Source: Herbiconiux solani NBRC 106740 (GTDB taxonomy: Bacteria; Actinomycetota; Actinomycetes; Actinomycetales; Microbacteriaceae). From it: a stretch of 64,000 nucleotides of DNA. The stretch is from assembly GCF_001571005.1 (NCBI RefSeq), contig NZ_BCST01000002.1, positions 434,001 to 498,000 on the forward strand. Reading direction: 5' to 3'. Both the position numbers and the translations under genes were made by a program. The notes under the pieces were generated by a model. The model worked only from the letters and a program-made list of their open reading frames with translations, was not told the DNA's origin and did no database searches. Shown here one piece after another: positions 2 to 30,252 of this stretch. The first letter of the stretch is position 1. Each line of letters starts with the position of its first letter.

Positions 2-1384
2 CTCCTGGTTGCCGGCGACATGTCGGTCGAAGCGGTTCTCGCAGTCTCCTACGACGAGTTGGACGACGACACGGCCGAGCTGTTCCAGTCCGTCTCCATC
101 ATCGACGGGTTGACTTTCACCGGCAGAATCGCCGCCGCCGCATCGGGGAACTCCCCCTCCGCCACCGAGGCTCGTCTGGAGCACCTGGTGGACCTCGGGA
201 TGCTCGAGTCCCGCGGCGGCAGCCGCTACCGACTGCACGATCTGTTGCGCGTCTTCGCCGCTTCCCGATTCAGATCAGAGAACTCTGCCAACGAGATGGC
301 CGCGGCCCAAGACAGATTGACGTACTGGCTCCTCCGCACCGTGCTGGTCGTCGTGGGTGACAGGTCGGTGTCGATCCCGGACGAATGGGAGCAGTACCGG
401 CTAGAGGACGATCCAGACAGCGCCGACGAGTTGACTGCGCGTTCTTGGATTCTGGCCGAGGCCGACCACTGGTGGCCTGCGGTTCGCCGGGCCGCCTCTA
501 CCGGGGACCATGATGCTGTCCTCCGAGTAGCTGAGGCACTTCAGTGGAAGTCTGCGAAGTGGCATGAATGGGGGCACTGGCACGAGCTCAATGAGTTGGC
601 TCTTCGCTCAGCTACTGAGCTCGACGACAAACGACAGCAGTCGCTTCGGTCGAGCGTTCTCGCCTGGACGGCCATGACCGAGCGGGGTAATCCCATCGAC
701 GCGCAACAGCATGCTCTGACCGCTCTAGCCACGGCGGAATCGATCGGCGACGTGTATGCGTCGTCACGTGCCCACTACTTCTTCGCATGGTCCAGTTTGT
801 ACGCCGGTCAAACCGAGGGCCTCGAGGATCATCTACTATCGGCAATCGAGGGTTACGAAAAGTCTGAAGCGCTCTCGGAATCGCGGCAAGCCCGTACGAT
901 CCTGGGGGTATTGCAGCGTCGGCTTGGACGCCACGAACGTGCGATCACCGAGCTTTCCGCCGTTCTGAGCGAGTTGCCGACTGAATTCGACGAAGCCGAG
1001 GAAGACTTCGCCACGTCCTTTTCACGCAATGTCGTTCTGGAGGAGCTGGCGAATTGCTACGTCGAGATCAATGACCCCACTTCGGCCCTGCGTATGGCTG
1101 ACGCGCTGGTAAGCATGATCAGCACGCTCGACACAGACATCTTCAACGCGCGGTCGCGAATCATTCGGGCCCGCGCTCTTCTCGCTGGCGCACGAACCGA
1201 TGAGAGCCTTGTCGAGCTTGAAACCATCAAGCGGCTGCTTGCGGCCTACCCGGCGAGCGGCCACGTGGCCATGATGATGGTCGAAATGGAGGCTCTACGT
1301 TTTGCCGCAATGGAAGGAGGCTCTGTCCCAGGCGCGATCGCGGATCTCAGAGCGACCCCGCCTCCGAATAGAGCACGTGACTGA
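2..1384 (+). CDS. AfsR-type regulator, C-terminal part (5' end outside window)
   Basis: The reading frame is open to the left edge, so the first ATG at 20 is probably internal. The visible part starts in the winged-helix segment that follows an NB-ARC ATPase in AfsR/SARP-type regulators. It has the typical 'YRLHDLLRVFA' motif near residues 75-85 of the visible part. An alpha-helical, TPR-like region of about 330 residues follows. In the family this region binds partners or signals while the missing N-terminal parts bind DNA and nucleotide. The family is a confident call; the target genes cannot be told. The gene ends 21 bases before the convergent oxidoreductase gene. Confidence 0.7.
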   Translation, partial: LLVAGDMSVEAVLAVSYDELDDDTAELFQSVSIIDGLTFTGRIAAAASGNSPSATEARLEHLVDLGMLESRGGSRYRLHDLLRVFAASRFRSENSANEMAAAQDRLTYWLLRTVLVVVGDRSVSIPDEWEQYRLEDDPDSADELTARSWILAEADHWWPAVRRAASTGDHDAVLRVAEALQWKSAKWHEWGHWHELNELALRSATELDDKRQQSLRSSVLAWTAMTERGNPIDAQQHALTALATAESIGDVYASSRAHYFFAWSSLYAGQTEGLEDHLLSAIEGYEKSEALSESRQARTILGVLQRRLGRHERAITELSAVLSELPTEFDEAEEDFATSFSRNVVLEELANCYVEINDPTSALRMADALVSMISTLDTDIFNARSRIIRARALLAGARTDESLVELETIKRLLAAYPASGHVAMMMVEMEALRFAAMEGGSVPGAIADLRATPPPNRARD

Positions 1385-12600: not shown

Positions 12601-13884
12601 ATGCTCGACATCGTTCGCGCACCCGATCCCGACTACCCCTCCCTGCGACACGTCTATGGCGCCACCGGCGCCCCCGCAGCGATCATCCGCCCCCGCACAA
12701 CGGAAGAGGTCGCTGAAGCACTTCTCTTCGCTCGCGAAACCGGTGGGGAACTCTCCATCCGAAGCGGCGGGCACGGCATCAGCAGCATCTCGACCAACAC
12801 GGGCGGGACCGTGATCGATCTTGGTCGACTCAACGGCATCGAGCGCATCAGCGACACAATGGTCAAGCTGGGTCCGGGTGCCCACTGGGGCCACGTCGCT
12901 CGGGAGCTGTATCCGTGGGGACTCTCCATCAGCTCGGGAGACTCCGGCGATGTGGGAGTAGGCGGGCTCGGTACGACCGGAGGCATCGGCCTGATGGGTC
13001 GGGCCCATGGGCTGACCATCGACAGGCTACGTTCTGCCGAACTGGTCACAGCCGACGGGGCAGTGCATCGTGTATCCGCCTCCCAGGAGCCTGATCTGTT
13101 CTGGGCGATCCGTGGAGCGGGGGCGAACATCGGCATCGTGACGTCGTTCGAGTTCGAAGCGTCCACGACTCCGGTGGTCGCCCAAGCAACCATCGCCTAC
13201 CAGCTGCGCGACACCGCCACGTTCCTCAACCGTTGGGGCGCCCTCGTTGAGCAGTCCCCTCGAGAGATATCCGCGTTCCTGTATATAGGCGTCGGAGCGG
13301 CACCGTTCGCGCAGGCAACTGTCGTCTACGCATCGGATGATGCCGATTCGGCTCTGACCGCACTCACGCCGTTCACTGAGCTGCCGGGCATGGCCGGGCA
13401 GCGAGCACAGATCGTGCCCTACGCCGCCGTTCCACTCACAACAGACGCGCCTCACAGTGGGCAGCAGCGCGCATTCACGCACACCGGCCTGGTCGATCAT
13501 CTGGACCTCGATGTCTCACACGGGCTCGGCGCTCTCCTCGCGGAGGGCAGCACTCAGATGGTGCAGATCCGCTCGGCGGGAGGCGCGATCAACGATGTTC
13601 CACCCGACGCCACGGCATACGCGCACCGGCACCAGAACTTCTCCGTGACCGCGATCGCGAGCGTCGATTCGCCACGCTTCGCCGCCGCCTGGGAGCCGGT
13701 GCACGCGCTTACGACGGGAATGTACTTGAGCTTCGAATCCGGGCGCGACCCGGGTCGCATCATGGAGGCCTTTCCGCCTGCCACCCTGAGCAGGCTCCGC
13801 GCTATCAAGTCAGAATGGGATCCGGAAGGGGTGTTCAGCCAGAACTTCGACGTCACCCGTCCTAGTTCGGTGCCAACACCGTAG
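12601..13884 (+). CDS. FAD-binding oxidoreductase (PCMH/BBE-type)
   Basis: A 427-residue flavoprotein of the berberine-bridge-like oxidase group. The PCMH-type FAD domain includes 'SIRSGGHGISSIS' near residue 57; the His in GGH is the usual covalent FAD site. 'VGVGGLGTTGGIGLMGRAHG' follows without the Cys used in bicovalent members. The C-terminus 'WDPEGVFSQNFDV' matches the BBE tail. It should oxidise an alcohol, sugar or similar compound using oxygen. AAGGA precedes ATG 12601. Its last 23 bases overlap the convergent LAL gene. Confidence 0.83.
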   Translation: MLDIVRAPDPDYPSLRHVYGATGAPAAIIRPRTTEEVAEALLFARETGGELSIRSGGHGISSISTNTGGTVIDLGRLNGIERISDTMVKLGPGAHWGHVARELYPWGLSISSGDSGDVGVGGLGTTGGIGLMGRAHGLTIDRLRSAELVTADGAVHRVSASQEPDLFWAIRGAGANIGIVTSFEFEASTTPVVAQATIAYQLRDTATFLNRWGALVEQSPREISAFLYIGVGAAPFAQATVVYASDDADSALTALTPFTELPGMAGQRAQIVPYAAVPLTTDAPHSGQQRAFTHTGLVDHLDLDVSHGLGALLAEGSTQMVQIRSAGGAINDVPPDATAYAHRHQNFSVTAIASVDSPRFAAAWEPVHALTTGMYLSFESGRDPGRIMEAFPPATLSRLRAIKSEWDPEGVFSQNFDVTRPSSVPTP

Positions 13885-16588
13885 CGAGCTGAGATCGCCG
13901 ACTGATCCCCAACTTGGCGAACGCGCGGTGGAGATGGGCTCCGACAGTTCGGTGCGAAAGGTAGATCTGGTCGGCGATCTCTCGATTGGTCAAGCCCTCT
14001 GCCGCGAGCCGCGCGACCAGGAGCTCCTGAGCGGTGAGGAGCCGGCCCGCCTCTACGCGGGCCGGTCCGATTCGGCTGGAGTCCACGCCGCCCGCTGCAC
14101 GGAGTTCAGCCGAGGCTCTTTCGGCGAGGGGACGGATCGACTCGGCTTCGAAGACGCGAAGCGCCTCCCACAGTTCGGTTCGGGCTTGGACGATCCGCCG
14201 ATCTCTGCGCAGTCGCTCTCCGAAATGCAGTCGCGCCCTGGCCAGTTCTACGGTTGAACCCGCTCGCATACCCGCTTCGATAGCGGCCTCAAAGTGCGTG
14301 GTTGATTCCTCTCCCTCGGCCATGATTCCTCGAGAACGCGCAACGACCACTCGAAGATGATCAGAATCGGTAGCCTCGATGGCCCGGTCAGCTCGCTCCA
14401 GCCACTCATCGACCTCGACGCGTCGCCCGGTTCTCACGCTCAGCTCGGCGAGGTCTCCCCCAGCCCACAAGGCAATCGGCTCATTGACCCGTGTCTTCAC
14501 GAGTTCGTCGATCGCCACATCGGACCGACCCTCGTCGATGGCTAGCTGCGCCGCAGCCCAAGCCGCAGTGGCCGCGATGCGGGCAAATGGCTGCGGACCT
14601 GCCTGCTCGAGGACCGTCTGGAGTGCTTCACGGGCGAGCTCTGCCTCGCCGCGCTGTGCGCGAGCTCGAGCGATGAAGGCTGCCGCCATTCCGCCGACGA
14701 CCCCCAGGTTGAGTTCTCTGCTCAGGTGCAACGCCTGCTCTACGTCGGCCAACCCCGCGGTCAGGTGTCCTGCGATGATGCGCAGCCCCCCACGGCCGCA
14801 CAGTCCTGTGGCTTCGTCGCTGGTTCGCGCGGCGGCATGAAAAGCTCTCGTAGCCGCGTCCCAGACGGTCTCAGCCGCCCAGAGATCGCTGACTTCCTCG
14901 GCACTGAACGCCAGGCAGTTGATGAGCACCGAATCTGTCTGTCGTAGTCGGCCTTCGAAGGCCCGAAGCGCGATCTCGACATCCCCCGTTCCTCGCCCGG
15001 GCTCCATGAGCGTAAGGCCGATGCGCTGAAACACGTCGTCGCCGCTGGGGTCGACCTGCCACAGCTCTCGCGCAATGACTGACCTCACCTCGGCTGGTTC
15101 GCCGAGTATGTAGGCACGGACAGCTGCGAAGACGAGCGCCTCGATCCGGTCATCCCGATCATGCAGCTCGCCCGCGAGGCCGACCAAGTCGAGAGCGCTC
15201 CGACCTTGATGAGCAGTGGTCTGGCTGAGCATCCATTCCGTTCGGGCAAGCCGGAGTACGTCGTCATCGCCTTCGGCAAGAGGGATCGCCTCGGCGATCA
15301 GGGCTGCCGCAGCATCAGGAGCCCCCGCCTGGCGGGTCGCTTCTGCGGCCAGAGCGATTCGATGGGCTCGGTCGGTGGTGATGGGTGAAAGATCGGCTGC
15401 ACGCTGCCAAGCCGCAGCAGCCTCGATGCGCGCACCCCGCCGTTCCTCTGCTTCCGCGGCGTGGTCGAGTTCGCGTGCTACATCCTCGTCCCAACCCGAT
15501 GCTGCGGCCGCTCGATGCCAAGCGGCACGAGTCGGGTCCGTGACCGAAGCAGCCAGCGCGGAGTGCGTATCCGCTCGGCTTCCGGAATCACTCGCGCTGT
15601 ACAGGGCCGAACTGACAAGGGGGTGCCGGAACCGATACTCACCGTCTCTCACCTGGATCAGCTTGAGCCGCTCGGCGGGGACGAAATCGCGTTCGGACAG
15701 ACCTAAGACGTGAAGGGAAGCGATCACCTCCCGCAGGCTTGCTCGTTGACCGGCAGCCGCGACCAGGAGCGCCTGGCGAGTGGATTCTGGAAGCTGTCGA
15801 ATCTCTGACAGGAATGTTTCCTCAAGTCGTCCCGTGAGTGGCAACCACTCGCCAGTCAGTCCCGGGACAGCTGAACTGGGGGGCGCTGAGATGGCGAACT
15901 CGGTGAGCGCCAATGGGTTTCCGAGCGAGTTGGACACGATCAGATCACGCACCCGAGCCTCAAGCGTCGGCGAACTCTGCTCGATCAGCTTCAGGGAGTC
16001 GGCATCGCTCAGGGGCGCCAGCGGAAGCAGCCCGCCGAACCGAGTTGCGAAGTCGGTCTCCCCCTGACCTGGCCGTGCCGTTGCGATCATGAGTACAGGA
16101 AGCCCACTGAGACGACGGGCGAGGAAACCGATGACGTCCGCGCTGGACGAATCGAGCCAGTGGATGTCTTCGGCAATCACAAGCACGGGCGACTCCGCTG
16201 CCGTCTCCTCGAGGAGTCCTAGCGCACCCAACCCAAGAAGCAGGCGGTCCACATCGCCGTCGTCGCTCATTCCGAAGGCCGTGCGGATAGCACCCGCCTG
16301 CCGTGAGGGAACGGTCTCCAGGTGGCGGAGCAGTGGTTGGAGCAGCTGGTGGAGGCCAGCGAATCCAGCAGAGCTGGCGTCTCTGACGCCAGCGCATTCG
16401 ACGACCTCGAACCCGCGCCCGATGGCTTGGGTTCGCACCGACTCCATGAACGCGGTCTTTCCGATCCCTGCCTCTCCCTGAACGAGAAGAGCACCGCCGT
16501 GTCCTCCCGCAGCTCGGTCAAGGGCGGCGATGACCGCGCTCGTCTCAGCATCGCGCCCGATCAGGCGTACCGGCGATTGCAGGCTCAC
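13862..16588 (-). CDS. LuxR-family regulator with AAA ATPase domain (LAL type)
   Basis: A 908-residue large ATP-binding LuxR regulator. The N-terminal ATPase has Walker A 'GEAGIGKT' near residue 40 and a Walker B region 'VLVIAEDIHWLD' near residue 140. A long helical, TPR-like middle follows. The last 60 residues form the LuxR helix-turn-helix ('LTNREIADQIYLSHRTVGAH'). LAL proteins activate catabolic or secondary-metabolite genes. Its start overlaps the stop of the MmyB-type gene by 4 bases, so it is the last gene of a five-gene regulatory operon read from about 19279. Confidence 0.87.
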   Translation of the reverse strand: MSLQSPVRLIGRDAETSAVIAALDRAAGGHGGALLVQGEAGIGKTAFMESVRTQAIGRGFEVVECAGVRDASSAGFAGLHQLLQPLLRHLETVPSRQAGAIRTAFGMSDDGDVDRLLLGLGALGLLEETAAESPVLVIAEDIHWLDSSSADVIGFLARRLSGLPVLMIATARPGQGETDFATRFGGLLPLAPLSDADSLKLIEQSSPTLEARVRDLIVSNSLGNPLALTEFAISAPPSSAVPGLTGEWLPLTGRLEETFLSEIRQLPESTRQALLVAAAGQRASLREVIASLHVLGLSERDFVPAERLKLIQVRDGEYRFRHPLVSSALYSASDSGSRADTHSALAASVTDPTRAAWHRAAAASGWDEDVARELDHAAEAEERRGARIEAAAAWQRAADLSPITTDRAHRIALAAEATRQAGAPDAAAALIAEAIPLAEGDDDVLRLARTEWMLSQTTAHQGRSALDLVGLAGELHDRDDRIEALVFAAVRAYILGEPAEVRSVIARELWQVDPSGDDVFQRIGLTLMEPGRGTGDVEIALRAFEGRLRQTDSVLINCLAFSAEEVSDLWAAETVWDAATRAFHAAARTSDEATGLCGRGGLRIIAGHLTAGLADVEQALHLSRELNLGVVGGMAAAFIARARAQRGEAELAREALQTVLEQAGPQPFARIAATAAWAAAQLAIDEGRSDVAIDELVKTRVNEPIALWAGGDLAELSVRTGRRVEVDEWLERADRAIEATDSDHLRVVVARSRGIMAEGEESTTHFEAAIEAGMRAGSTVELARARLHFGERLRRDRRIVQARTELWEALRVFEAESIRPLAERASAELRAAGGVDSSRIGPARVEAGRLLTAQELLVARLAAEGLTNREIADQIYLSHRTVGAHLHRAFAKLGISRRSQLATVLAPN

Positions 16589-17382
16589 AGTTCGAGGGTA
16601 TCCCCCAGGAACACGATTAGCAGCAGCCCGTCGGCACCGGGTACCTCGAAGGTGCTGCAGGTCGCGCGCGCCTCCGCGGAGCCGCCGACACCGACGCGCA
16701 TCCGACCGTACGGAACCGGCCGGGCGTCGTGCCGTGCCCAGAGACGTCTGAAATCGTCATCTCTGATCGAGAGTCGCCCCACTAGTTCCTGAAACCGACG
16801 GTCGTGCGGATTCCCGTGGTAGCGGAGGGCTCCCAGTACCCGGCTCGCCCCTGCTTCCCAGTCGTGGTCGTCCCGGCCTTCAGCTGCGAAGACGGACTCG
16901 ATCAGGTTGAAACCCTGTCGAAGCCGACCGTCGCCGAGTTGAGCAGCGGCATCGTTCACCAAGAACACGTCGAAATTGACCGAGATGATCATTGCCGGCG
17001 TATTCGACCACCCTCTGAGCAGCTGCACCATCTCTTCTGTGACTTCGATCTCGAGCTGCTCCGGTGATGAACGAAACGGCTTCAGCTGCATATGCCGCAA
17101 CCGCAACAGATGCTGCTCAGCGTTGTGGTCGAGCAAAAGAGCTTTCGCGATGCCCCGCAAGACCTGGTCCGACGGCTCGCGGTCGTGCCCCTGCTCCAGT
17201 CGCAGATAGTATTCCGGGCTGATCGATGCCCGCTTCGCAACCTCCTCGCGCCGGAGTCCGGGAACCCTGCGGTTGGGTTCACGCACGAGACCGACCGCTT
17301 CGGGCGGAATGGCAGCGCGCCGGGCCCACAAGTACTCACCGAGAATGGTCGACGAGCGGTTGCTCGACCTCACACTGGTCAC
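16585..17382 (-). CDS. MmyB-type helix-turn-helix regulator
   Basis: A 265-residue XRE-family regulator. The helix-turn-helix (residues about 10-85) carries 'GLRREEVAKRASISPEYYLR' and 'LEQGHDREPSDQVLRGIAKA', typical of the MmyB group. The remainder is the MmyB ligand-binding domain (PAS-like; it bound a fatty acid in a studied homologue). The gene overlaps by 4 bases both the upstream GlcG/HbpS-type gene (17379-17382) and the downstream LAL gene (16585-16588), which implies coupled translation. Targets are unknown, though many MmyB regulators control neighbouring SDR or hydrolase genes. Confidence 0.87.
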   Translation of the reverse strand: MTSVRSSNRSSTILGEYLWARRAAIPPEAVGLVREPNRRVPGLRREEVAKRASISPEYYLRLEQGHDREPSDQVLRGIAKALLLDHNAEQHLLRLRHMQLKPFRSSPEQLEIEVTEEMVQLLRGWSNTPAMIISVNFDVFLVNDAAAQLGDGRLRQGFNLIESVFAAEGRDDHDWEAGASRVLGALRYHGNPHDRRFQELVGRLSIRDDDFRRLWARHDARPVPYGRMRVGVGGSAEARATCSTFEVPGADGLLLIVFLGDTLEL

Positions 17383-17885
17383 AGTGCGCCTCCCACACTC
17401 CGTGCGGCCGAAGAGACCGCGTCATGGTCCTGCGATGGGGAACCCCCACCCGCTCCCAGCCCACCGATGACGACACCCCCACCGTCGAGTATCGGAACTC
17501 CTCCGGCCACGAACGCCAGTCTGACCTCAGACGAGGTCGCGATTGTCGCGAGCGGCCCTCCTGCCGCTGCTGCGCTGAGATCAGACGTGGAAGCAGCAAA
17601 ATGCACCGCAGTGCGTGCTTTCGCGATGGATGAGTCGATCGCCCCGATCGCGGCGCCATCCATTCGGGTGAGCAGGACCAGATTGCCGCCGCCATCCACC
17701 ACCGCCACGCAGGACGGTATCCCGGTGTCTTCGACTCTTCTGATGGCAGCGGTCGTGAGTGCTCGAGCTAGTTCGAGCGGCAAGATGATCGGGGAAACAA
17801 CGGCCATGTCCATGTATGGACTCTGCCGCGGAGACCTACTGTGAGGCATCGGTCGAATGACCACATTCGGCACAGTCATCGACAT
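17379..17885 (-). CDS. GlcG/HbpS family protein (DUF336)
   Basis: A 168-residue protein of the GlcG/HbpS family. The core 'ALTTAAIRRVEDTGIPSCVA' plus 'VVDGGGNLVLLTRMDGA' and 'GGVPILDGGGVVIGGLGAGG' is diagnostic. HbpS in Streptomyces binds haem and works with a two-component sensor; other members are of unknown function. No signal peptide is obvious. Alternative starts are ATG 17849 and ATG 17813; conserved sequence begins around residue 33. It sits between two MmyB-domain genes in a tightly packed regulator run, so a ligand- or haem-sensing role is plausible but inferred. Confidence 0.78.
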   Translation of the reverse strand: MSMTVPNVVIRPMPHSRSPRQSPYMDMAVVSPIILPLELARALTTAAIRRVEDTGIPSCVAVVDGGGNLVLLTRMDGAAIGAIDSSIAKARTAVHFAASTSDLSAAAAGGPLATIATSSEVRLAFVAGGVPILDGGGVVIGGLGAGGGSPSQDHDAVSSAARSVGGAL

Positions 17886-17896
17886 CGCAATGATCG

Positions 17897-18400
17897 CTAT
17901 CCGACGAGGTGCGCGAGCTTGGAGGCCGAACTCTCGTCCGCACCGGTCCACACCACGAGGGTGTCTTCCGAGCCGCCGCCGAGTGGTAATTCGTGCTGAT
18001 TCAGACGAAGCTCACCCGCCTCCGGGTGGCGGATCAGCACGGCTGCTTGCCCCGCGTGGTCGATATTCAGGGCCCATGACCGGGCGAAGACATCGCTGCG
18101 CGCAGTCAGCTCACCGACCAAGTCGAGAAAGATGTTGTCTTCCGGGTGCCGGTTCAATGATGATCGAAGTGCCGACGCAATGAGATCCGCCTTGTGCTCC
18201 CAGTCCTGCAGGTCCCGGTTCGTCTCTGCACCGAGGTAGGCGAATCGAGCGATGTTCGTCCCAGGCAAGTAGATGGGGTGGAGTGCCTGCGCCTTTCGTG
18301 TAGACCCGATCACATCGAGATGACGGTCATAAGCCATCATCGCGATCTCCGGTAGTGCATCAAGTACGTCCAACACGATCGGCCTCATGTCATGAACCAT
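17897..18400 (-). CDS. Stand-alone MmyB ligand-binding domain protein (no HTH)
   Basis: A 167-residue protein that aligns with only the C-terminal ligand domain of MmyB regulators. Visible signatures are 'VLDALPEIAMMAYDRHLDVI', 'NIARFAYLG', 'NRHPEDNIFLDLVGELTARS', 'FARSWALNID' and 'IRHPEAGELRLNQHELPL'. No DNA-binding domain is present. GGAGG six bases before ATG 18400 gives a good start, and the gene begins 24 bases after the stop of a complete MmyB regulator, so it is not simply a truncated copy cut by the start call. It may bind the same ligand or form heterodimers; both ideas are inference. Confidence 0.75.
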   Translation of the reverse strand: MVHDMRPIVLDVLDALPEIAMMAYDRHLDVIGSTRKAQALHPIYLPGTNIARFAYLGAETNRDLQDWEHKADLIASALRSSLNRHPEDNIFLDLVGELTARSDVFARSWALNIDHAGQAAVLIRHPEAGELRLNQHELPLGGGSEDTLVVWTGADESSASKLAHLVG

Positions 18401-18424
18401 CAGAACCTCCGCGCCTGGACTTCC

Positions 18425-19279
18425 TCATGCTGTCGCCTGATGGTTCCCGAAACCGGCATGCGTGTTCGTCGACGCATGGGCGACTCGGAGGGACTTGACC
18501 ATATCTGCCGCGGCGGACTCGGCTTCTGCGTGCAGCACAGTGAGAAGATGGTTCTCGTCACCGGCTGGCCTGAGGCTCTGCAACGAGAACTCGACTCGGC
18601 CGAATCCGGCGACGTCGAGGTGTAGCTCGCTTGTGTCCATCGGCGTTGCTGCGTGTGCGGCCCAGATTCGACGGAAGTCCTCATCGCGCATGGAAAGAAG
18701 CCCGATGATGTCTTGAAAGTGAAGGTCGGATGGATCGGCGTGGAACCGCAGCGCTGCAAGAGCGCGGTGTGCTGTTGTTTCCCAGTCGACGTCGGAAGCA
18801 CGCCAGTCTCGGCTGAAGATCTTCAGCACAAGACTTGTACCGAGATCGATTCCGCCGGGAAGGATCGCCTTCGCCAGCTCGTTGACGAGGACGACCGTCT
18901 GGTTCTTATCGGTCACAAATGCCGGCATCGTGGACCATTGGTCGATCATCGGCCCGAGGCTCGCCTGGATGAGGTGCTGGGACTCCGCCGCCCGTTGAAC
19001 ACCTGACTGGATTCCAATCAGCCTCGTCATGTACTGGATCGCGTTGGCGTCCAGCTTCAGAGCTCGCGCCAGGGAACGCAGTACCTGGTCGGAGGGTTGG
19101 TGTCCTCGGCCCTGTTCGATGCGTAAGTAGTACTCGGGGCTGATACCAGCGAGCTGAGCGACTTCATCGCGGCGGAGACCTTCAACACGGCGACCCGACA
19201 TACTCCGAAGCCCCACGTCTTCGGGTCGGAGGCTTGCCCGCCGCACCCTCAGATACTCTCCCAGTGGTGAGTCCACCAT
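18425..19279 (-). CDS. MmyB-type helix-turn-helix regulator
   Basis: A 284-residue XRE/MmyB regulator. The helix-turn-helix is marked by 'GLRRDEVAQLAGISPEYYLR' and 'IEQGRGHQPSDQVLRSLARA'; the ligand domain follows, with 'DRHL'-like 'VTDKNQTVVLVNELAKAI', 'FQDIIGLLSMRDEDFRRIWA' and 'LHLDVAGFGRVEF'. ATG 19279 has GAGG five bases upstream and begins at the usual distance from the helix-turn-helix; the frame is open to 19423. It is the first gene of the five-gene minus-strand regulator run and is divergent from the haloperoxidase-like gene at 19556. Confidence 0.85.
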   Translation of the reverse strand: MVDSPLGEYLRVRRASLRPEDVGLRSMSGRRVEGLRRDEVAQLAGISPEYYLRIEQGRGHQPSDQVLRSLARALKLDANAIQYMTRLIGIQSGVQRAAESQHLIQASLGPMIDQWSTMPAFVTDKNQTVVLVNELAKAILPGGIDLGTSLVLKIFSRDWRASDVDWETTAHRALAALRFHADPSDLHFQDIIGLLSMRDEDFRRIWAAHAATPMDTSELHLDVAGFGRVEFSLQSLRPAGDENHLLTVLHAEAESAAADMVKSLRVAHASTNTHAGFGNHQATA

Positions 19280-19555
19280 CCACCTCGCATTCTTCTTGCC
19301 GATCGACGCCGGAGTTCTTGTTCGGAACAACTCTGACCACCTCGCCGTTTCTCGTCCATGCAGAACACAGGCAGATACGAGCAGAAGGTGGCCAGTTGGC
19401 GCGGTCCTGGCGATTAACGGCAAACGCGTAGCGCCGCTGGACCCGCAATTAACTCCCGCTAGCTGTCCCCCTAAGGGCCACGTGCTTCGGGGGTCAGATT
19501 CCTAACGTTGTGGACGTCACAACGACTACAACGACCACACTCAGGGAGAAAGACC
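19280..19555. promoter_or_regulatory. Divergent control region, MmyB operon / haloperoxidase gene
   Basis: A 276-base gap between divergent starts. It contains a perfect inverted repeat, CGTTGTG-GACGT-CACAACG (19506-19524), 31 bases before the start at 19556, and a looser dyad with CCCCC (19467-19471) and GGGGG (19489-19493). The latter resembles the C/G-run dyad at 2850. No convincing -35/-10 pair was fixed by eye. These are the likely binding sites for one or both MmyB regulators. Confidence 0.5.
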
Positions 19556-20380
19556 ATGCCGTACTTCACTACCTCCGAGGGCATCGAGCTCTATTACACC
19601 GACAACGGTGCCGGCCAGCCGATCGTGTTCAGTCACGGATGGCCACTCTCGAGCGACGCGTGGCAGGTCGAGCTGAAGGTGTTCGCTGACGCCGGCTACC
19701 GCACCATCGCGCACGATCGTCGCGGCCACGGCCGGTCACAGAAGACCTCCACCGGCAACGACATCGATACCTACGCCCGCGACCTCGCCGAGCTGATCGA
19801 GCACCTCGACCTGCACGACCTCGTCATCTGGGGCCACTCGACCGGTGGCGGCGAAGCGGTCCGCTATGCCGCGCAGTACGCAAACGGTCGCGTCGCGAAG
19901 GTGGTCACCGCTGGAGCCATCCCACCCGTGATGCTCAAGTCGGACAAGAATCCGGGTGGGTCGCCGATCGAGGTCTTCGACGGCATCCGCGCAGGAGTGC
20001 TGAAGGACGCGTCGCAATTCTGGATCGATCTCGCCGAGGGCCCGTTCTTCGGCGCCAACCGCCCGGGTAGTTCCGTTTCCGAGGGCGCGAAGCGTGACTT
20101 CTGGCGCCAGGGTGCGCTGGTGAACCTCGCAGCGGCCTACGACTGCATCAAGGCGTTCTCGGAGACGGAGCAGTTCGACGATCTCAAGGCGCTGGACGTG
20201 CCGATCTACATCGCGCACGGCTCCGACGACCAGATCGTTCCCATCGCCGGCGCTGCCGAGCAGAGCATCAAGCTCGTGAAGTACGGCACGCTCAAGGTGT
20301 ACGAGGGTGCGCCGCACGGTATCTACGGCGACTATCAGGATGAGCTCATCAAGGATGTGCTCGCCTTCATCAAGGCGTAG
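19556..20380 (+). CDS. Alpha/beta hydrolase, non-haem chloroperoxidase-like
   Basis: A 274-residue alpha/beta hydrolase of the bacterial cofactor-free haloperoxidase group. The oxyanion region is 'FSHGWPLSSDAW', the nucleophile elbow 'WGHSTGGGEAVRY' near residue 97, the acid in 'YIAHGSDDQIVP', and the His in 'EGAPHGIYGDY' near residue 254. Members are perhydrolases/esterases in vitro; the physiological substrate is unknown. AGGGAGAAAG precedes ATG 19556. The start region carries a 7-bp inverted repeat, and the gene is divergent from the MmyB-type regulator, which is the likely controller. Confidence 0.87.
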   Translation: MPYFTTSEGIELYYTDNGAGQPIVFSHGWPLSSDAWQVELKVFADAGYRTIAHDRRGHGRSQKTSTGNDIDTYARDLAELIEHLDLHDLVIWGHSTGGGEAVRYAAQYANGRVAKVVTAGAIPPVMLKSDKNPGGSPIEVFDGIRAGVLKDASQFWIDLAEGPFFGANRPGSSVSEGAKRDFWRQGALVNLAAAYDCIKAFSETEQFDDLKALDVPIYIAHGSDDQIVPIAGAAEQSIKLVKYGTLKVYEGAPHGIYGDYQDELIKDVLAFIKA

Positions 20381-23477: not shown

Positions 23478-25028
23478 ATGCAAATCAATGCGGACGACCT
23501 GCTGCGCGACTTGCGCACACACGGTGTGCGTCAGGTTCACATCGCGGATGCAGAGACGAAGGCGCTCGTCCGGAACGCGGCGGGGCCGACGGCGGAGCCC
23601 GTTCCCGTCATTCTGTCGCCGGAGGGCTCGGCAGCGCCGGGCGCCGCCGCCGGGGAGTCTGCCGTGACTAGCGAGCTCGCGGCCTGTGCCGGGTGGCTGG
23701 CGAACGACGGCTTCCTTGACGGCGTCGCGAACATCATCCGCACCGACGCTGCGGTTATCGCGCTTGTACTCCTGACCGGTGCGCCCACGGACCGCGCCGC
23801 AGCCGAAAGGCTGCAGGCCCTTGCCGACGGCGGTGCGCGCTGCGAAGTCGTCCACGACGGCCTGCACCTGCCGAGCGCCATCGCGCGCGCCGCGCACTTC
23901 GCTCTCGAAGAGCGCTCTGTCGCAGTCGTCGCCTTCTCTGCCTCACAATTGGCCCGGCAAAACGCAGCCGGAACAGTCGAGCTCCCGGCGACCGCTGCAC
24001 CCGATGCTCCAAGGAGAGTTCCGCATGCGGACGACCTACACCGTACGGCGATGGCGTTGGGCGCATCCCGGAACGTGGTGCTCGTGGCGGGAGGCGGAAC
24101 GGCGGACGCCCATGATGAGGTGCTGGCTCTGGCCTGCATTCTGCAGGCACCCATAGCGCACACGCTCCGCGGTAAGGAGAACCTGGAGTGGGGAAACCCC
24201 TACGACATCGGGCTTGTAGGAGACTCAGGCCACTCAGCGGCACGCGACGCTCTTGCCCGCGCCGATACCGTCGTGCTCATCGGAACGGACTTCGCCTACC
24301 CGGGGTTCATTGCCCCGGGAACGCTCGTAATTCAGATCGATCGGGATGCCCGCCGTATTGGACGCAGCACGGCGGTGCATTTCGCGCTCTTGGGTGACGT
24401 GGGGGAAACGCTCTCAGCGCTGGCGTCCTGCCTGACGCTGCGCACCGACAAGGCGTTCATGGTCGAGTCAACGGCCCTCCGTCGGATGGAAGAGGTTTGG
24501 TTTCGCTCCGAAGCGGTCACTGCAGCATTCGACGCCGAGAATGTTGCGGCGTTGTTGAGCGAAGTCGCTAGCGCCGACGCCATTTTCGCCGTCGATGTCG
24601 GTCCGGAGTGGCATCGAGCGGTGCGGCACCTCCGCACGAACGGAAGCCGACGCCTGATCGGTTCCATGAGGCATGGCGCGCTGGCCGATGCAGTCTCGCG
24701 GGCAGGGGGCGCACAATCCGCCGACCCAGAACGCCAGGTGATCGTCCTCGCCGGCTTGCGTGGGGCGGCGCAGCTGGGCGGACAACTCACGGCTCTCGCA
24801 GCCCGCGACCTTCCGGTGAAGGCGGTGCTGCTGAACCCGTGCCCGGCCACGACCTGGCTACCCAATGGCTTGAGCGGCATCGATGTTACGAGGTTGGATC
24901 TGTTCTCAGACGCGCGTTCGGCGCTTACTCGCCTCCTCTCCTGCAAGGGCACTGCGGCGGTCGAGATTGCCCTGGGTGTCCCAAGCGCGGAACGAGCACG
25001 GCGCGATCTGAGCGGAGCGCTCCGATGA
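23478..25028 (+). CDS. PoxB-like ThDP-enzyme homologue with degraded active-site motifs
   Basis: A 516-residue protein with the three-domain order of pyruvate oxidase/dehydrogenase (PoxB). The middle domain is well kept: 'HTLRGKENLEWGNPYDIGLVG', and 'LIGTDFAYPGF' and 'VIQIDRD' near residues 225-290. The C-terminal domain keeps 'RRLIGSMRHGALADAV' and 'DPERQVIVLAG', but the GDG start of the thiamine-diphosphate motif is 'GLRGAA' and the Asn-rich metal site is 'LLNPCPATT'. The N-terminal 'ELAACAGWLANDG' replaces the usual Gly-rich loop. The frame is intact, so it may be a non-catalytic relative. It overlaps the next MFS gene (ATGA). A GGGAG box precedes the start. Confidence 0.72.
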   Translation: MQINADDLLRDLRTHGVRQVHIADAETKALVRNAAGPTAEPVPVILSPEGSAAPGAAAGESAVTSELAACAGWLANDGFLDGVANIIRTDAAVIALVLLTGAPTDRAAAERLQALADGGARCEVVHDGLHLPSAIARAAHFALEERSVAVVAFSASQLARQNAAGTVELPATAAPDAPRRVPHADDLHRTAMALGASRNVVLVAGGGTADAHDEVLALACILQAPIAHTLRGKENLEWGNPYDIGLVGDSGHSAARDALARADTVVLIGTDFAYPGFIAPGTLVIQIDRDARRIGRSTAVHFALLGDVGETLSALASCLTLRTDKAFMVESTALRRMEEVWFRSEAVTAAFDAENVAALLSEVASADAIFAVDVGPEWHRAVRHLRTNGSRRLIGSMRHGALADAVSRAGGAQSADPERQVIVLAGLRGAAQLGGQLTALAARDLPVKAVLLNPCPATTWLPNGLSGIDVTRLDLFSDARSALTRLLSCKGTAAVEIALGVPSAERARRDLSGALR

Positions 25029-27137: not shown

Positions 27138-27857
27138 ATGGGAACGCTACTCGAGAAGATCATCTACGCGCACGGCGGAAGTCGCTGGAGCGAGGTCGAT
27201 CAGATCTCGGCGACACGGCAGTTCGGCGGTGCATTCTGGTCACTGAAATCTGTTCCCGGGATCGCCGAAGAAGGTCGATTCACGGTCGACCTCCGACGCG
27301 AACACAGTCAGCTCTACAACTTCGGTGACGCGAATCTTCATACCGACTTCACCCCCGACAGGGTTGCGATCGTCCGGGCAGATGGCGCCGTGGTCGAGGA
27401 ACTGCTGAATCCGCGTGACTCGTTCAACGGCCACGAGCTGATGACGCCCTGGAACGATCTGCATCTGGCGTACTTCACCGGATATGCCATGTGGACCTAC
27501 AACACCGAACCGCAGTCGTTCACCCTAGACGGGGTGGTCACGGAAGAACTCGGCCCCTGGACCGAGGAAGACGGTCAGGTCTGGGACAGGCTCCAGGTGA
27601 CGTACCCGAGCTCCCTCGCCACCCACACACCGGTTCAGGTCCTGTACGCGGACTCCGACGGAGTCCTCCGTCGCCGTGATTACTCCGTCGACATCGCGGG
27701 GGGATCACCTGCTGTGGAGTACATGACCGAGCACACGCTCTTCGACGGACTGCTGCTGCCCAAGCATCGGGAGATCTTCGTGCGCGACGACGCCGGTCAT
27801 GCTGTGCGGGAGCCCCTGCTCGTCTCGATCGACATCGACGACGTCTCCATCGGATAG
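27138..27857 (+). CDS. Hypothetical protein, 239 aa
   Basis: I do not recognise a named family. The protein is soluble, acidic, without signal peptide or TM segment. Visible features are an N-terminal 'LLEKIIYAHGG..W..V' that resembles the start of outer-membrane-lipoprotein-carrier-like proteins, many beta-strand-like stretches, and aromatic-rich 'TPWNDLHLAYFTGYAMWTYN' near residue 100. GGAGAAAATC precedes the ATG, 15 bases after the hydrolase stop, so it is the last gene of the PoxB-like operon. A long hairpin follows its stop. A lipid- or ligand-binding barrel is a guess from the N-terminus. Confidence 0.6.
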   Translation: MGTLLEKIIYAHGGSRWSEVDQISATRQFGGAFWSLKSVPGIAEEGRFTVDLRREHSQLYNFGDANLHTDFTPDRVAIVRADGAVVEELLNPRDSFNGHELMTPWNDLHLAYFTGYAMWTYNTEPQSFTLDGVVTEELGPWTEEDGQVWDRLQVTYPSSLATHTPVQVLYADSDGVLRRRDYSVDIAGGSPAVEYMTEHTLFDGLLLPKHREIFVRDDAGHAVREPLLVSIDIDDVSIG

Positions 27858-27876: not shown

Positions 27877-27916
27877 GTCAGTCCTCCCGAAACCGTCTGA
27901 CCTCGGGAGGACTGAC
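27877..27916. terminator. 14-bp perfect hairpin between convergent genes
   Basis: GTCAGTCCTCCCGA (27877-27890) and TCGGGAGGACTGAC (27903-27916) are exact reverse complements around a 12-base loop. The hairpin follows the 27138 gene and also lies inside the last codons of the convergent 27878 gene. No T-run is present on either strand, so it may act as a factor-assisted or bidirectional terminator, or as an mRNA-stabilising element. Confidence 0.55.
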
Positions 27917-28423
27917 ACGTTGCAGGGCCAGCGCCGAGGCTTCATCAGCAGGCTCCCACAGGACGACAGAATCTCCGCTCCCGTCCGAGACGGAGTTGAG
28001 CGTGTAGGTCAGTTCCGCCGACGACGTTTCCCCGGTGGAGAAGCGGAACGTGCCGGTGCGAGTCGGCGCCACATTTCGCGCCCAAGCATCGTTGAAATCC
28101 TCGCTCAGGGCTGCGAGCTCACCCACCAGCCTGATGAACTCGTCATCCTCACCATGGCGGCCCAGCGATGCTTTCAACGCGGCCGAGACATGTTCGCACG
28201 CCAAACCCCACCCGACGTCGACATGCGAGGGCTTCTCGACGAGAAACACCGCACGCGCAATATTCGCCCCTACGGCAGACGACGGCAGGACGGCCGAAGC
28301 GAGGCCGTTGGCAGCGAAAACTGTGAGGTGCCTATCGAGCCCAAGAGCCGGAGTCTCTGTCAGCGAAGCAATCAGTGCGGCGGCAGCAGCACGATCGGGT
28401 AGTTCCTGACTCGTATGGGGCAT
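27878..28423 (-). CDS. Second stand-alone MmyB ligand-domain protein (no HTH)
   Basis: A 181-residue protein resembling the ligand-binding half of MmyB regulators: 'LTETPALGLDRHLTVFAANG' then 'LASAVL', 'NIARAVFLVE', 'LGRHGEDDEFIRLVGELAAL', 'FNDAWARN' and 'FRFSTGETSSAELTY'. There is no helix-turn-helix, and the divergent gene starts only 152 bases upstream, leaving no room for one. It is unlinked to the similar protein at 17897 and diverges from it in sequence. Start ATG 28423 is the only good choice. It is divergent from the cNMP-reductase fusion, a context that could suggest redox or lipid sensing, by inference. Confidence 0.7.
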   Translation of the reverse strand: MPHTSQELPDRAAAAALIASLTETPALGLDRHLTVFAANGLASAVLPSSAVGANIARAVFLVEKPSHVDVGWGLACEHVSAALKASLGRHGEDDEFIRLVGELAALSEDFNDAWARNVAPTRTGTFRFSTGETSSAELTYTLNSVSDGSGDSVVLWEPADEASALALQRVSPPEVRRFRED

Positions 28424-28575: not shown

Positions 28576-30252
28576 ATGACCGATTTCACTTCCGCAGATG
28601 CCCGTGCCGTCCATCCAGTCCTGTCCGCTCCACAGATGTCCAGGTTGGCCGCCTATGGCAATGCCAGCACTGTGGTTGCAGGGGAGTCGGTGTTCGGCTC
28701 AGGTGATGTCTCGCCGGATCTCATCCTGGTTCATCAAGGCGCGGTCGACGTGGTCCAGCCGGCGACGATGCTGGTCGACGAGACGGTCATCGATTCTTTC
28801 GGACCCGGTGAGTTCGTCGGCGAGCTCAACCTCTTGACCGGGCAGCGGATCTTCCTGCAGGGCCGGGTCACGAAAGACGGTTCGGTCACGCGCGTCACAG
28901 CGGCGGGGTTCCGAAAGGTGATGGCGGAGGATCCTGAGCTGTCGGACCTCATGCTGCGGGCGTTCATCAGTCGGCGGCGTTTCCTGAAGGGTGGGCAGGG
29001 GGCACGCGGTGTCGAGATCGTCGGAAGCGCTTTGGACGGACGAGCATTAGGACTGCGCACCTACGCCGCTCGCCAGAGAATCGCGCACTCTTGGATCGAT
29101 ATCGAAAGTCCCGACGGAGCAGCAGTGGCGCGCAAGCTGAATCTCGGCCCCGACGACTTGCCCGTGGTGCTGGCACCAGACGCCACCTTGAAGACGGCAA
29201 CTCCCGGCGACTTGGCCCGGCACCTTGGGCTTACCTACCGACCACGGGGGGAGGCCGAAGTCGTCGACCTGGCTGTAATCGGTGGCGGGCCATCGGGGCT
29301 GGCCGCAGCAGTCTACGGAGCCTCCGAAGGCTTGGACACCATATTGCTGGAGGCGGTGTCGCTGGGCGGGCAGGCTGCTGCGAGCTCCCGGATCGAGAAC
29401 TACCTCGGCTTCCCGTCGGGTCTGAGCGGTGAGGAACTCACCGCGCGGGCCATGGTGCAAGCAGAGAAGTTCGGCGCACATCTCTACTCGCCGTGCGAGG
29501 TGAAGGCACTGGATACATCGGGTCCATTGATCGAATTGGACTTGGAGGATGGAGTCAGAATTCGAGTGAAAGCGGTGATAGTTGCAACGGGCGCCCGATA
29601 CAGGTCACTGCCTATAAGCAACTGGGCAGACTTCGAAGGGGCCGGTATCTATTATGCGGCGACAGAGATCGAGGCCAGGGACTGTGGGCAGAGCAGCGTC
29701 ACCGTGATCGGCGGCGCCAACTCTTCCGGGCAGGCGGCCTTGCATCTCGCATCGCGAGGTGCAGCTGTCACAATCGCAGCTCGCCGCGCAGATCTGCGAG
29801 CGACGATGTCCTCGTACCTGGTCGACCGCCTGGAGGCGCACCCGCTCGTTGAGATCCGTACCCGCACCGAAGTCGTGGGTTTAAGTGGTGCCCGCCATCT
29901 CGAGAAAGTGGAGCTCACCGACCATACGACCGGGACGACGTGGTCTCAGGACTGCCGCGGTCTTTTTTGCTTCATCGGCGCCGAACCCGCGACGGGATGG
30001 TTGCGTGGCAGCGGAAACGGAGACTTGGCACTGAACTCTGATGGATTCCTACTGACCGACACAGACCTACCTCCCTCGGCGGAGGCCGCTTTCCGTCCGC
30101 TGGGTAGGAGCCCGCTGCCGTACGAGACGAGCATCCCGCGGGTTTTTGCCGTTGGTGATGTCCGTCAGGGCTCGATGAAGAGGGTCACTGGCGCGGTGGG
30201 AGAAGGGGCCAGCGCAGTGAAATCCGTTCATGTTGCGGTCGGAAACGTGTAG
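28576..30252 (+). CDS. cNMP-binding domain / thioredoxin reductase-like fusion
   Basis: A 558-residue three-part flavoprotein. Residues about 15-130 are a cyclic-nucleotide-binding fold ('ILVHQGAVDVV', 'FGPGEFVGELNLLTGQ'). Residues about 150-220 look like a thioredoxin/glutaredoxin-type insert ('LRTYAARQRIAHSWIDIE') without a CxxC. Residues about 230-555 are thioredoxin-reductase-like, with FAD site 'VIGGGPSGLAAAVYGASEG', 'GGQAAASSRIENYLGFP' and NADP site 'VIGGANSSGQAALHLAS'. The usual CxxC is absent: 'YYAATEIEARDC' stands there. This architecture is known in Actinobacteria as an annotated fusion but its reaction is not established. Start ATG 28576. Confidence 0.83.
   Translation: MTDFTSADARAVHPVLSAPQMSRLAAYGNASTVVAGESVFGSGDVSPDLILVHQGAVDVVQPATMLVDETVIDSFGPGEFVGELNLLTGQRIFLQGRVTKDGSVTRVTAAGFRKVMAEDPELSDLMLRAFISRRRFLKGGQGARGVEIVGSALDGRALGLRTYAARQRIAHSWIDIESPDGAAVARKLNLGPDDLPVVLAPDATLKTATPGDLARHLGLTYRPRGEAEVVDLAVIGGGPSGLAAAVYGASEGLDTILLEAVSLGGQAAASSRIENYLGFPSGLSGEELTARAMVQAEKFGAHLYSPCEVKALDTSGPLIELDLEDGVRIRVKAVIVATGARYRSLPISNWADFEGAGIYYAATEIEARDCGQSSVTVIGGANSSGQAALHLASRGAAVTIAARRADLRATMSSYLVDRLEAHPLVEIRTRTEVVGLSGARHLEKVELTDHTTGTTWSQDCRGLFCFIGAEPATGWLRGSGNGDLALNSDGFLLTDTDLPPSAEAAFRPLGRSPLPYETSIPRVFAVGDVRQGSMKRVTGAVGEGASAVKSVHVAVGNV

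Follow-up and report, generated by a model that had tools for sequence, protein, structure and literature searches.

Partners that keep the ligand domain of a transcription regulator and lack its helix-turn-helix (HTH) are already known in the LuxR family. In Cereibacter sphaeroides, CerN, an HTH-less LuxR relative encoded near CerM, binds CerM with autoinducer and weakens its hold on DNA, which is backed by pull-down, electrophoretic mobility shift and reporter data (PMC11655674), and in Agrobacterium TrlR forms inactive heterodimers with TraR (PMC13043044); for these and the other papers cited here, our statements follow the accessible excerpts. Here we consider a comparable arrangement in the MmyB family of regulators, found in a 64,000-nucleotide stretch of the Herbiconiux solani NBRC 106740 genome (family Microbacteriaceae; contig NZ_BCST01000002.1, positions 434,001 to 498,000; 'the window' means this whole stretch). 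Five regulator-type genes follow one another there on the minus strand, encoding a complete regulator (MmyB1), an MmyB-type ligand-binding domain (LBD) protein without HTH (a 'bare LBD'), a protein of the HbpS/GlcG/EfgA type (GlcG protein), a second complete regulator (MmyB2) and a LAL regulator. We propose, with about as much doubt as conviction, that these genes form two separately controlled modules within an island of enzyme and transporter genes, and that the bare LBD might be a ligand-responsive antagonist of its MmyB, as CerN is of CerM.

To our knowledge, the ligands and control modes of MmyB-type regulators are mostly not known. In actinomycetes they come in numerous paralogous copies, and ties to antibiotic and fatty-acid metabolism have been described (PMC3406030). 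MmyB1 and MmyB2 belong to the MltR/MmyB family treated in that paper, and the bare LBD appears to have the same PAS-like fold; one LBD-only protein, SCO6676, is mentioned there (Xu et al., 2012), and in the accessible excerpt neither a pairing of LBD-only with full members, nor a clade of such proteins, nor an association with LAL regulators is described. In CerM/CerN (PMC11655674), too, a full regulator has an HTH-less relative with the ligand domain retained, the two having neighbouring locus tags; a complete regulator likewise lies close to the gene of the HTH-less ligand domain for 46 of the 54 bare LBDs counted below. The differences are that the bare LBD has MLTR_LBD alone and is of the MmyB/Xre and not the LuxR/autoinducer family; that CerM/CerN is one quorum-sensing system, whereas bare-LBD pairs recur across a bacterial family; and that tail-to-tail gene overlap, frequent among MmyB/bare-LBD pairs, is not mentioned in the excerpt on CerM/CerN. 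TrlR is likewise a truncated relative without a DNA-binding domain paired with a full regulator, but it belongs to the LuxR family and, as far as the excerpt tells, is a truncated TraR-like protein of octopine-type strains and not a separate conserved clade (PMC13043044). The XRE-DUF397 pair Scr1/Scr2 of Streptomyces also joins an Xre regulator to a small protein encoded next to it; that partner, however, is a DUF397 protein and not of the regulator's own ligand-domain type (PMC6262351). The initial annotation of the window knew of no such arrangement described as a system. This stands insofar as searches of open-access literature, outside which subscription papers mostly lie, brought up no title or abstract that describes the arrangement or an MmyB/bare-LBD pairing, but it has to be tempered by the HTH-less antagonists of the LuxR family. 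What is new, as far as literature searches show, is the recurrence of a co-evolving HTH-less clade among MmyB-type proteins, the tail-to-tail arrangement of its genes, and the association with a LAL regulator and an EfgA-like protein.

Pfam scans bear out all five genes as initially annotated (coordinates in Table 1), and the 24-base gap between MmyB1 and the bare LBD and both 4-base overlaps are correct. In the bare LBD, MLTR_LBD is the sole Pfam domain (residues 6-165 of 167, 93.4 bits); the scan found no Xre-type HTH, and the protein is therefore not classed as an MmyB regulator. In MmyB1 and MmyB2, both HTH_31 and HTH_3 score over their curated cut-offs, and MLTR_LBD reaches 84.9 and 85.9 bits, respectively, against a cut-off of 26.3. 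LAL regulators are large proteins (~900 aa) with an N-terminal ATPase and a C-terminal LuxR HTH, and the window's LAL shows this layout in Pfam, with AAA_16 at the N-terminus and GerE at the C-terminus of 908 aa.

The pairing of a bare LBD with a complete MmyB recurs across Microbacteriaceae. A profile of 29 bare LBDs was run against 398 genomes of the family (E <= 1e-38), with 8 candidates scored per genome; for partner MmyBs 6 were scored, and all counts from the family searches, including that for LAL below, are lower bounds. The 61 matches, in 38 genomes, comprised 54 bare LBDs and 7 full MmyBs, which were excluded; the window genome has five bare LBDs. Gene neighbours were called by a simple open reading frame (ORF) caller, with two corrections by hand: the second bare LBD of genome G341 is divergent and not convergent, its neighbour call having suffered from an over-long ORF start, and that of G166 is flanked by full MmyBs on both sides. 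A full MmyB lies directly beside 35 of the 54 bare LBDs; one predicted gene intervenes in 9 cases and two in 2 (46 of 54 at no more than two predicted genes' distance), 4 have it farther away, and 4 have none in the neighbouring sequence covered. The adjacent MmyB is convergent in 27 of the 54, with the 3' ends overlapping in 21 of these 27 by 4 to 154 bases. In a quick tree, the nearest full MmyBs of all 35 directly adjacent bare LBDs fall into a single group of 58 full rows (the partner clade; SH-aLRT 100), and one more bare LBD, in G155 (L138), has an MmyB of this group on one side and an MmyB from outside it on the other.

A partner-MmyB profile found 98 partners in 48 of the 398 genomes. 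When the G155 bare LBD, which came from a class-wide search, is added to the 54, a partner-clade MmyB lies within 3 kb of 47 of these 55, while random placement gave a mean of 0.3 and a maximum of 3 in 2000 simulations. Seen from the other side, of the 98 partners 53 are within 3 kb of a bare LBD and 6 within 3 kb of another partner, which leaves 39 with neither; re-reading of 20 stretches, covering 23 of the 45 partners without a bare LBD, brought up two missed bare LBDs, one of them in G104. A partner-clade MmyB is present in each of the 34 genomes for which a bare LBD was counted, and 14 genomes (13 after the G104 correction) have a partner MmyB but no counted bare LBD. Such a one-sided distribution would be expected if the bare LBD were an accessory. 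Pairings of MmyB with a bare LBD, and of MmyB with LAL and the DNA element B described below, recur above chance. The class-wide search with the bare-LBD profile gave matches in 80 of 197 genomes at E <= 1e-20, and those listed outside Microbacteriaceae lie mostly in long open frames, like full MmyBs; the listing being capped, the bare clade may also extend beyond this family. We also note two convergent pairs of complete MmyBs, at L184:2885-4653 (G003) and L186:851-2867 (G188), one of which overlaps by 4 bases.

The bare LBDs form a clade of their own. A careful tree was built from 67 LBDs, and one of its branches separates all 29 bare ones from the rest (support 99/97; 98% of bootstrap trees); the quick tree, with 134 rows, gathers 58 of its 59 bare rows into a single group (SH-aLRT 99). 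Since they are one clade, we reject repeated local truncations of the adjoining MmyBs as their origin. We also reject decay of the gene, given the ratio of nonsynonymous to synonymous substitution rates (dN/dS), which points to purifying selection: it was 0.15-0.35 for 9 of the 10 close pairs of bare LBDs compared and 0.47 for the remaining one, a partial comparison. Distances among bare LBDs correlate with those among their partners (Mantel r 0.40, p 0.0005, 28 pairs; 0 of 2000 permutations as high), this comparison using 28 of 36 unique pairs, after omission of 8 near-copies and, earlier, of the LAL-separated pair of G045. With species held constant by swapping partners within genomes, the true pairing ranks 2 of 96. 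By these measures, selection maintains the bare LBD genes, and they tend to be passed down together with a matched MmyB. A short LBD in G586, of another family of the class, falls outside the bare clade (L139:6319-7209); it lies beside an HTH-only frame, and the two are likely a split MmyB gene.

The homology of bare LBDs and MmyBs, the existence of clusters of full and bare copies, and the convergent full-full pairs at L184 and L186 could also be accommodated if the bare LBDs were by-products of duplication and truncation that stayed linked by chance, with no regulatory exchange. We consider this improbable, as bare LBDs would then not be expected to form one clade that is not nested among the adjoining MmyBs, to have dN/dS well below 1, or to be linked to one MmyB clade in 47 of 55 cases against a random maximum of 3.

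What a bare LBD might do for its MmyB can be approached through its predicted structure. The AlphaFold2 (AF2) model of the window's bare LBD has a pLDDT of 93.7, and its fold matches MltR (3pxp) best among solved structures (E 7e-8, TM 0.76 by query length), with PAS domains next in rank; by sequence, 3pxp is the sole solved structure matched at E <= 0.1. On this model, the bare LBD keeps the PAS-like LBD fold. In the MltR crystal, helix H6 and the sheet, both belonging to the LBD, contribute to holding the dimer together, and a fatty-acid-like ligand in the LBD has been reported (PMC3406030). At inter-domain contact positions, matched to MltR by alignment, the residues of the bare rows give a mixed picture: among 57 rows, the Arg181 equivalent is R in 41 and K in 8, L stands at the Leu185 equivalent in 47, and the Trp210 equivalent is kept in 54, while the H of the WARHD motif is lost. 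Our favoured picture, held at about even odds, is that MmyB1 would act as a dimer on DNA, and that the bare LBD, keeping part of the surface for MltR-type subunit pairing and having no HTH, would sense a small hydrophobic metabolite and form with its partner MmyB a heteromer short of one reading head, with weaker or released DNA binding as the outcome.

The same pairing, clade and selection data would also fit if the bare LBD were a positive co-sensor, a stabiliser, or a ligand carrier or buffer of its MmyB. Absence of CerN also reduces the level of CerM protein (PMC11655674), and proteins of the MmyB family have been described as activators that seem to be induced by a ligand (PMC3406030), both of which lend weight to such a role. 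The HTH-less CerN and TrlR, however, act mainly by disabling the full protein (PMC11655674; PMC13043044), and we regard a supportive role as the less likely one, though it deserves serious attention. Returning to antagonism, we propose more tentatively, inclining slightly to the side of doubt, that Microbacteriaceae possess split MmyB regulators, in which a dedicated and co-evolving clade of HTH-less receptors would sense the ligand and work the HTH of the matched MmyB in trans, from overlapping tail-to-tail gene pairs or from co-directional units, with one branch wired to a LAL regulator and an EfgA-like sensor.

The initial annotation suggested comparing the gene order among related genomes. 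The order is kept in a second genome of the same genus, G004, where all five genes lie in identical order and strand (L016:10504 down to 5083), with identities to the window, in gene order, of 63, 58, 69, 57 and 64%. This conservation, together with the recurrence of the MmyB/bare-LBD association across Microbacteriaceae, upholds the view that the genes belong together. A LAL search of the 398 genomes (two candidates scored per genome, E <= 1e-130) gave 7 matches in 6 genomes, with at least 46% identity in the window genome (G000), G004, G006, G045 and G279, the last belonging to a third genus group (g58); the relatives in the four genomes besides the window's are 46-64% identical to it. All five close LALs have a bare LBD within 13 kb, a partner-clade MmyB nearby, and element B. 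G006 has the MmyB1 and bare LBD pair, with the LAL 6.7 kb from the bare LBD; no single co-directional block holds both bare LBD and LAL in G006, G045 or G279. Around two more distant LALs (40%; in G365 and on contig 7 of G000), no MmyB, GlcG or bare LBD and no exact core of element B occurs in the 18 and 14 kb covered.

Two short DNA elements suggest where the five-gene block may be divided. Element B, of 17 bases, emerged from comparing upstream regions; its pattern was derived from the same genomes that were scanned, and its rarity and position, not its discovery, count as evidence. Exact copies occur once each in G000, G004, G006 and G045, and G279 has two copies with 1 mismatch each, all at the LAL/MmyB locus. 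The site is between the bare LBD and HbpS genes in G000 and G004, upstream of the LAL-adjacent MmyB in G045 and G279, and at the MmyB/LAL junction in G006, with the second G279 copy upstream of the LAL. Among 43 genomes with a partner-clade MmyB and without a LAL of at least 46%, an exact copy was found in 1 (the whiB-like site considered below) and one-mismatch copies in 3, where by a rough estimate ~4 one-mismatch copies are expected. Element A was derived from G000, G004 and G006, after which 15 genomes were searched. Its exact copies, one each in G000, G004, G006 and G001, all lie upstream of a partner-clade MmyB; the G001 copy and a copy with one mismatch in G045 each lie ~100 bases upstream of another partner-clade MmyB, and two further one-mismatch copies are in G009 and G010. 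As one-mismatch copies would arise by chance in roughly every third genome (a rough estimate), the G045 copy counts solely by its position.

The 11-base gap initially given between the bare LBD and HbpS genes needs an early HbpS start at 17885. The start is more probably the ATG at 17813, because the N-terminus common with G004 (MDMAV.SPIILPL) begins there and, with 17885 as start, the Pfam domain would set in only at residue 35; the gap is then 83 bases. Element B lies in this gap, which makes a single five-gene operon doubtful. The simplest reading of the sequence is two adjoining modules, A (MmyB1 and bare LBD) and B (GlcG, MmyB2 and LAL), since each has its own conserved and rare upstream element, that of module B lying within the supposed operon. 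A promoter scan of 17750-19620 gave one weak sigma-70-like site, within the GlcG gene (shuffle mean 0.4). The annotated single operon, forming a self-contained signalling module, would have in its favour the short junctions, the two 4-base overlaps and the same order in G004; with element B conserved between the bare LBD and GlcG genes in both G000 and G004, with the bare LBD and LAL outside any common co-directional block in the three other genomes, and with enzyme genes shared among the islands, we think it has little chance of being correct. In the two-module reading, MmyB2 and/or LAL would drive module B from element B, its genes would be coupled in translation, the GlcG protein could provide a second small-molecule (aldehyde-type) input, and both modules together would probably control the adjoining hydrolase, transporter and oxidoreductase genes.

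'Self-contained' fits poorly in any case, given two separate conserved upstream elements and the surrounding enzyme and transporter genes, which are partly shared among the five LAL genomes; this sharing means that the block is not free-standing. Compared within these neighbourhoods, relatives of the alpha/beta hydrolase divergent from MmyB1 are 72-96% identical to the window's. Some neighbourhoods also share a SLAC1-type transporter, an ABC transporter pair and a major facilitator superfamily (MFS) transporter; a second hydrolase and a 239-aa protein of no Pfam family; and relatives of a thiamine diphosphate (ThDP) enzyme, an SMP-30/MRJP-like protein and HbpS-like proteins. These enzyme and transporter genes are, we infer, plausible targets of the block, and family scans of the island genes gave no clear pathway. 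The proximity of a bare LBD, within 13 kb, to all five close LALs, the bare LBD of G045 immediately divergent from the LAL, and that of G279 lying 12 kb from the LAL and beside the hydrolase might hint at another target of the bare LBD, such as the LAL itself, or at a metabolite-binding accessory of island enzymes. This seems very improbable to us, as most counted bare LBDs adjoin an MmyB in genomes where no close LAL was found.

Table 1. Positions of the regulator genes, candidate DNA elements and related features in the window.
Feature	Position	Strand	Basis or remark
LAL regulator, 908 aa	13862..16588	-	Pfam AAA_16 8-168, C-terminal GerE/LuxR HTH 851-904
MmyB2, second complete MmyB regulator (HTH_31 + MLTR_LBD), partner clade	16585..17382	-	Pfam; quick tree
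HbpS/GlcG/EfgA-type protein (PF03928)	17379..17813 (start revised from 17885)	-	Pfam 3.7e-29; N-terminus common with G004
Element B, TGGTCATTYGACSGATG, 17 bases, probable operator/promoter of GlcG-MmyB2-LAL	17847..17863	-	33 bases upstream of revised GlcG start
Bare LBD, 167-aa MLTR_LBD protein without HTH	17897..18400	-	Pfam MLTR_LBD 2e-26, profile 2-168/168
MmyB1, complete MmyB/MltR-type regulator (Xre HTH + MLTR_LBD), partner clade	18425..19279	-	Pfam HTH_31 3e-11, MLTR_LBD 9e-24; quick tree
Element A, TGCCTGNNNTCTGCATGG, probable operator/promoter of MmyB1-bare LBD	19356..19373	-	76 bases upstream of MmyB1
Alpha/beta hydrolase, divergent from MmyB1, candidate target	19556..20380	+	relative in all five LAL neighbourhoods
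Second bare LBD of island, without adjacent full MmyB	27878..28423	-	nearest in quick tree is G004 L043:7190-7987

Several other genes of the island may be mentioned in their own right. A 516-aa pyruvate-oxidase-like ThDP protein (23478-25028, plus strand) has a central domain and a partial C-terminal domain, its N-terminal thiamine pyrophosphate (TPP)-binding domain not being detected, and is possibly a non-catalytic relative. The 239-aa protein (27138-27857, plus strand), which has no Pfam or NCBIfam match, is conserved in G004 and G045, where it again adjoins the same hydrolase gene. At 28576-30252 (plus strand), a cyclic-nucleotide-binding domain is fused to a thioredoxin-reductase-like enzyme, with 45-48% relatives in the G004 and G279 islands. 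A 454-aa frame without Pfam match at 20-1384 (plus strand) shares 77% identity with a portion of an Xre/NB-ARC regulator of 818 aa, which adjoins the LAL in G004 (L016:2619-5075); this adds another type of regulator to the surroundings of the island.

The GlcG protein carries PF03928 (3.7e-29), and its nearest solved sequence is EfgA (6bws, 3e-19), ahead of HbpS (3e-10 and 5e-10). For this reason we do not favour the haem binder initially considered possible, and reject haem sensing as first choice. EfgA is a cytoplasmic formaldehyde sensor of Methylorubrum, a DUF336 protein with Lys57, Ser114 and Asp121 as proposed ligand residues (PMC8153426). By pairwise alignment, with the numbering inferred from a 20-residue tag, two of these three residues match in the GlcG protein, Lys57 and Asp121; the Ser114 position is Gly, and the gene, unlike that of EfgA, sits in a regulator block. 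An aldehyde-type input through the GlcG protein may be taken as a lead.

A number of observations weigh against the picture drawn here, or limit how far it can be carried. The complete five-gene order was found in just two genomes, G000 and G004. For eight of the 55 bare LBDs, no partner-clade MmyB lies as near as 3 kb, among them the second one of the window's island (27878-28423), which has no adjacent full MmyB, and 39 of the 98 partner-clade MmyBs appear solitary, though re-reading recovered some missed bare LBDs. Nearest neighbours agree in just 14 of the 28 pairs, and co-inheritance as a linked cassette would by itself also correlate the bare and partner trees. Element B has six two-mismatch copies elsewhere, in 4 of the 5 genomes, with two matches for a reversed control pattern, and an exact copy in G015 (L161:7224) lies just upstream of a gene that we take to be whiB-like from the start of its protein, with no MmyB or LAL nearby. 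The heteromer, antagonism rather than co-activation, the ligands, the translational coupling, the assignment of proteins to elements and the targets are all what we infer. MltR itself was monomeric in solution and a dimer in the crystal alone (PMC3406030), and EfgA is reported almost exclusively in methylotrophs (PMC8153426), which makes an aldehyde role for the GlcG protein weak.

The locus offers a concrete, testable protein pair together with two candidate DNA elements, and the MmyB/bare-LBD pairs provide an example of long 3' overlaps between the gene of a regulator and that of its likely antagonist. If the HTH-less partner clade acts as we propose, some MmyB regulators would be controlled as pairs, and deletion or overexpression of a single gene of such a pair could mislead.

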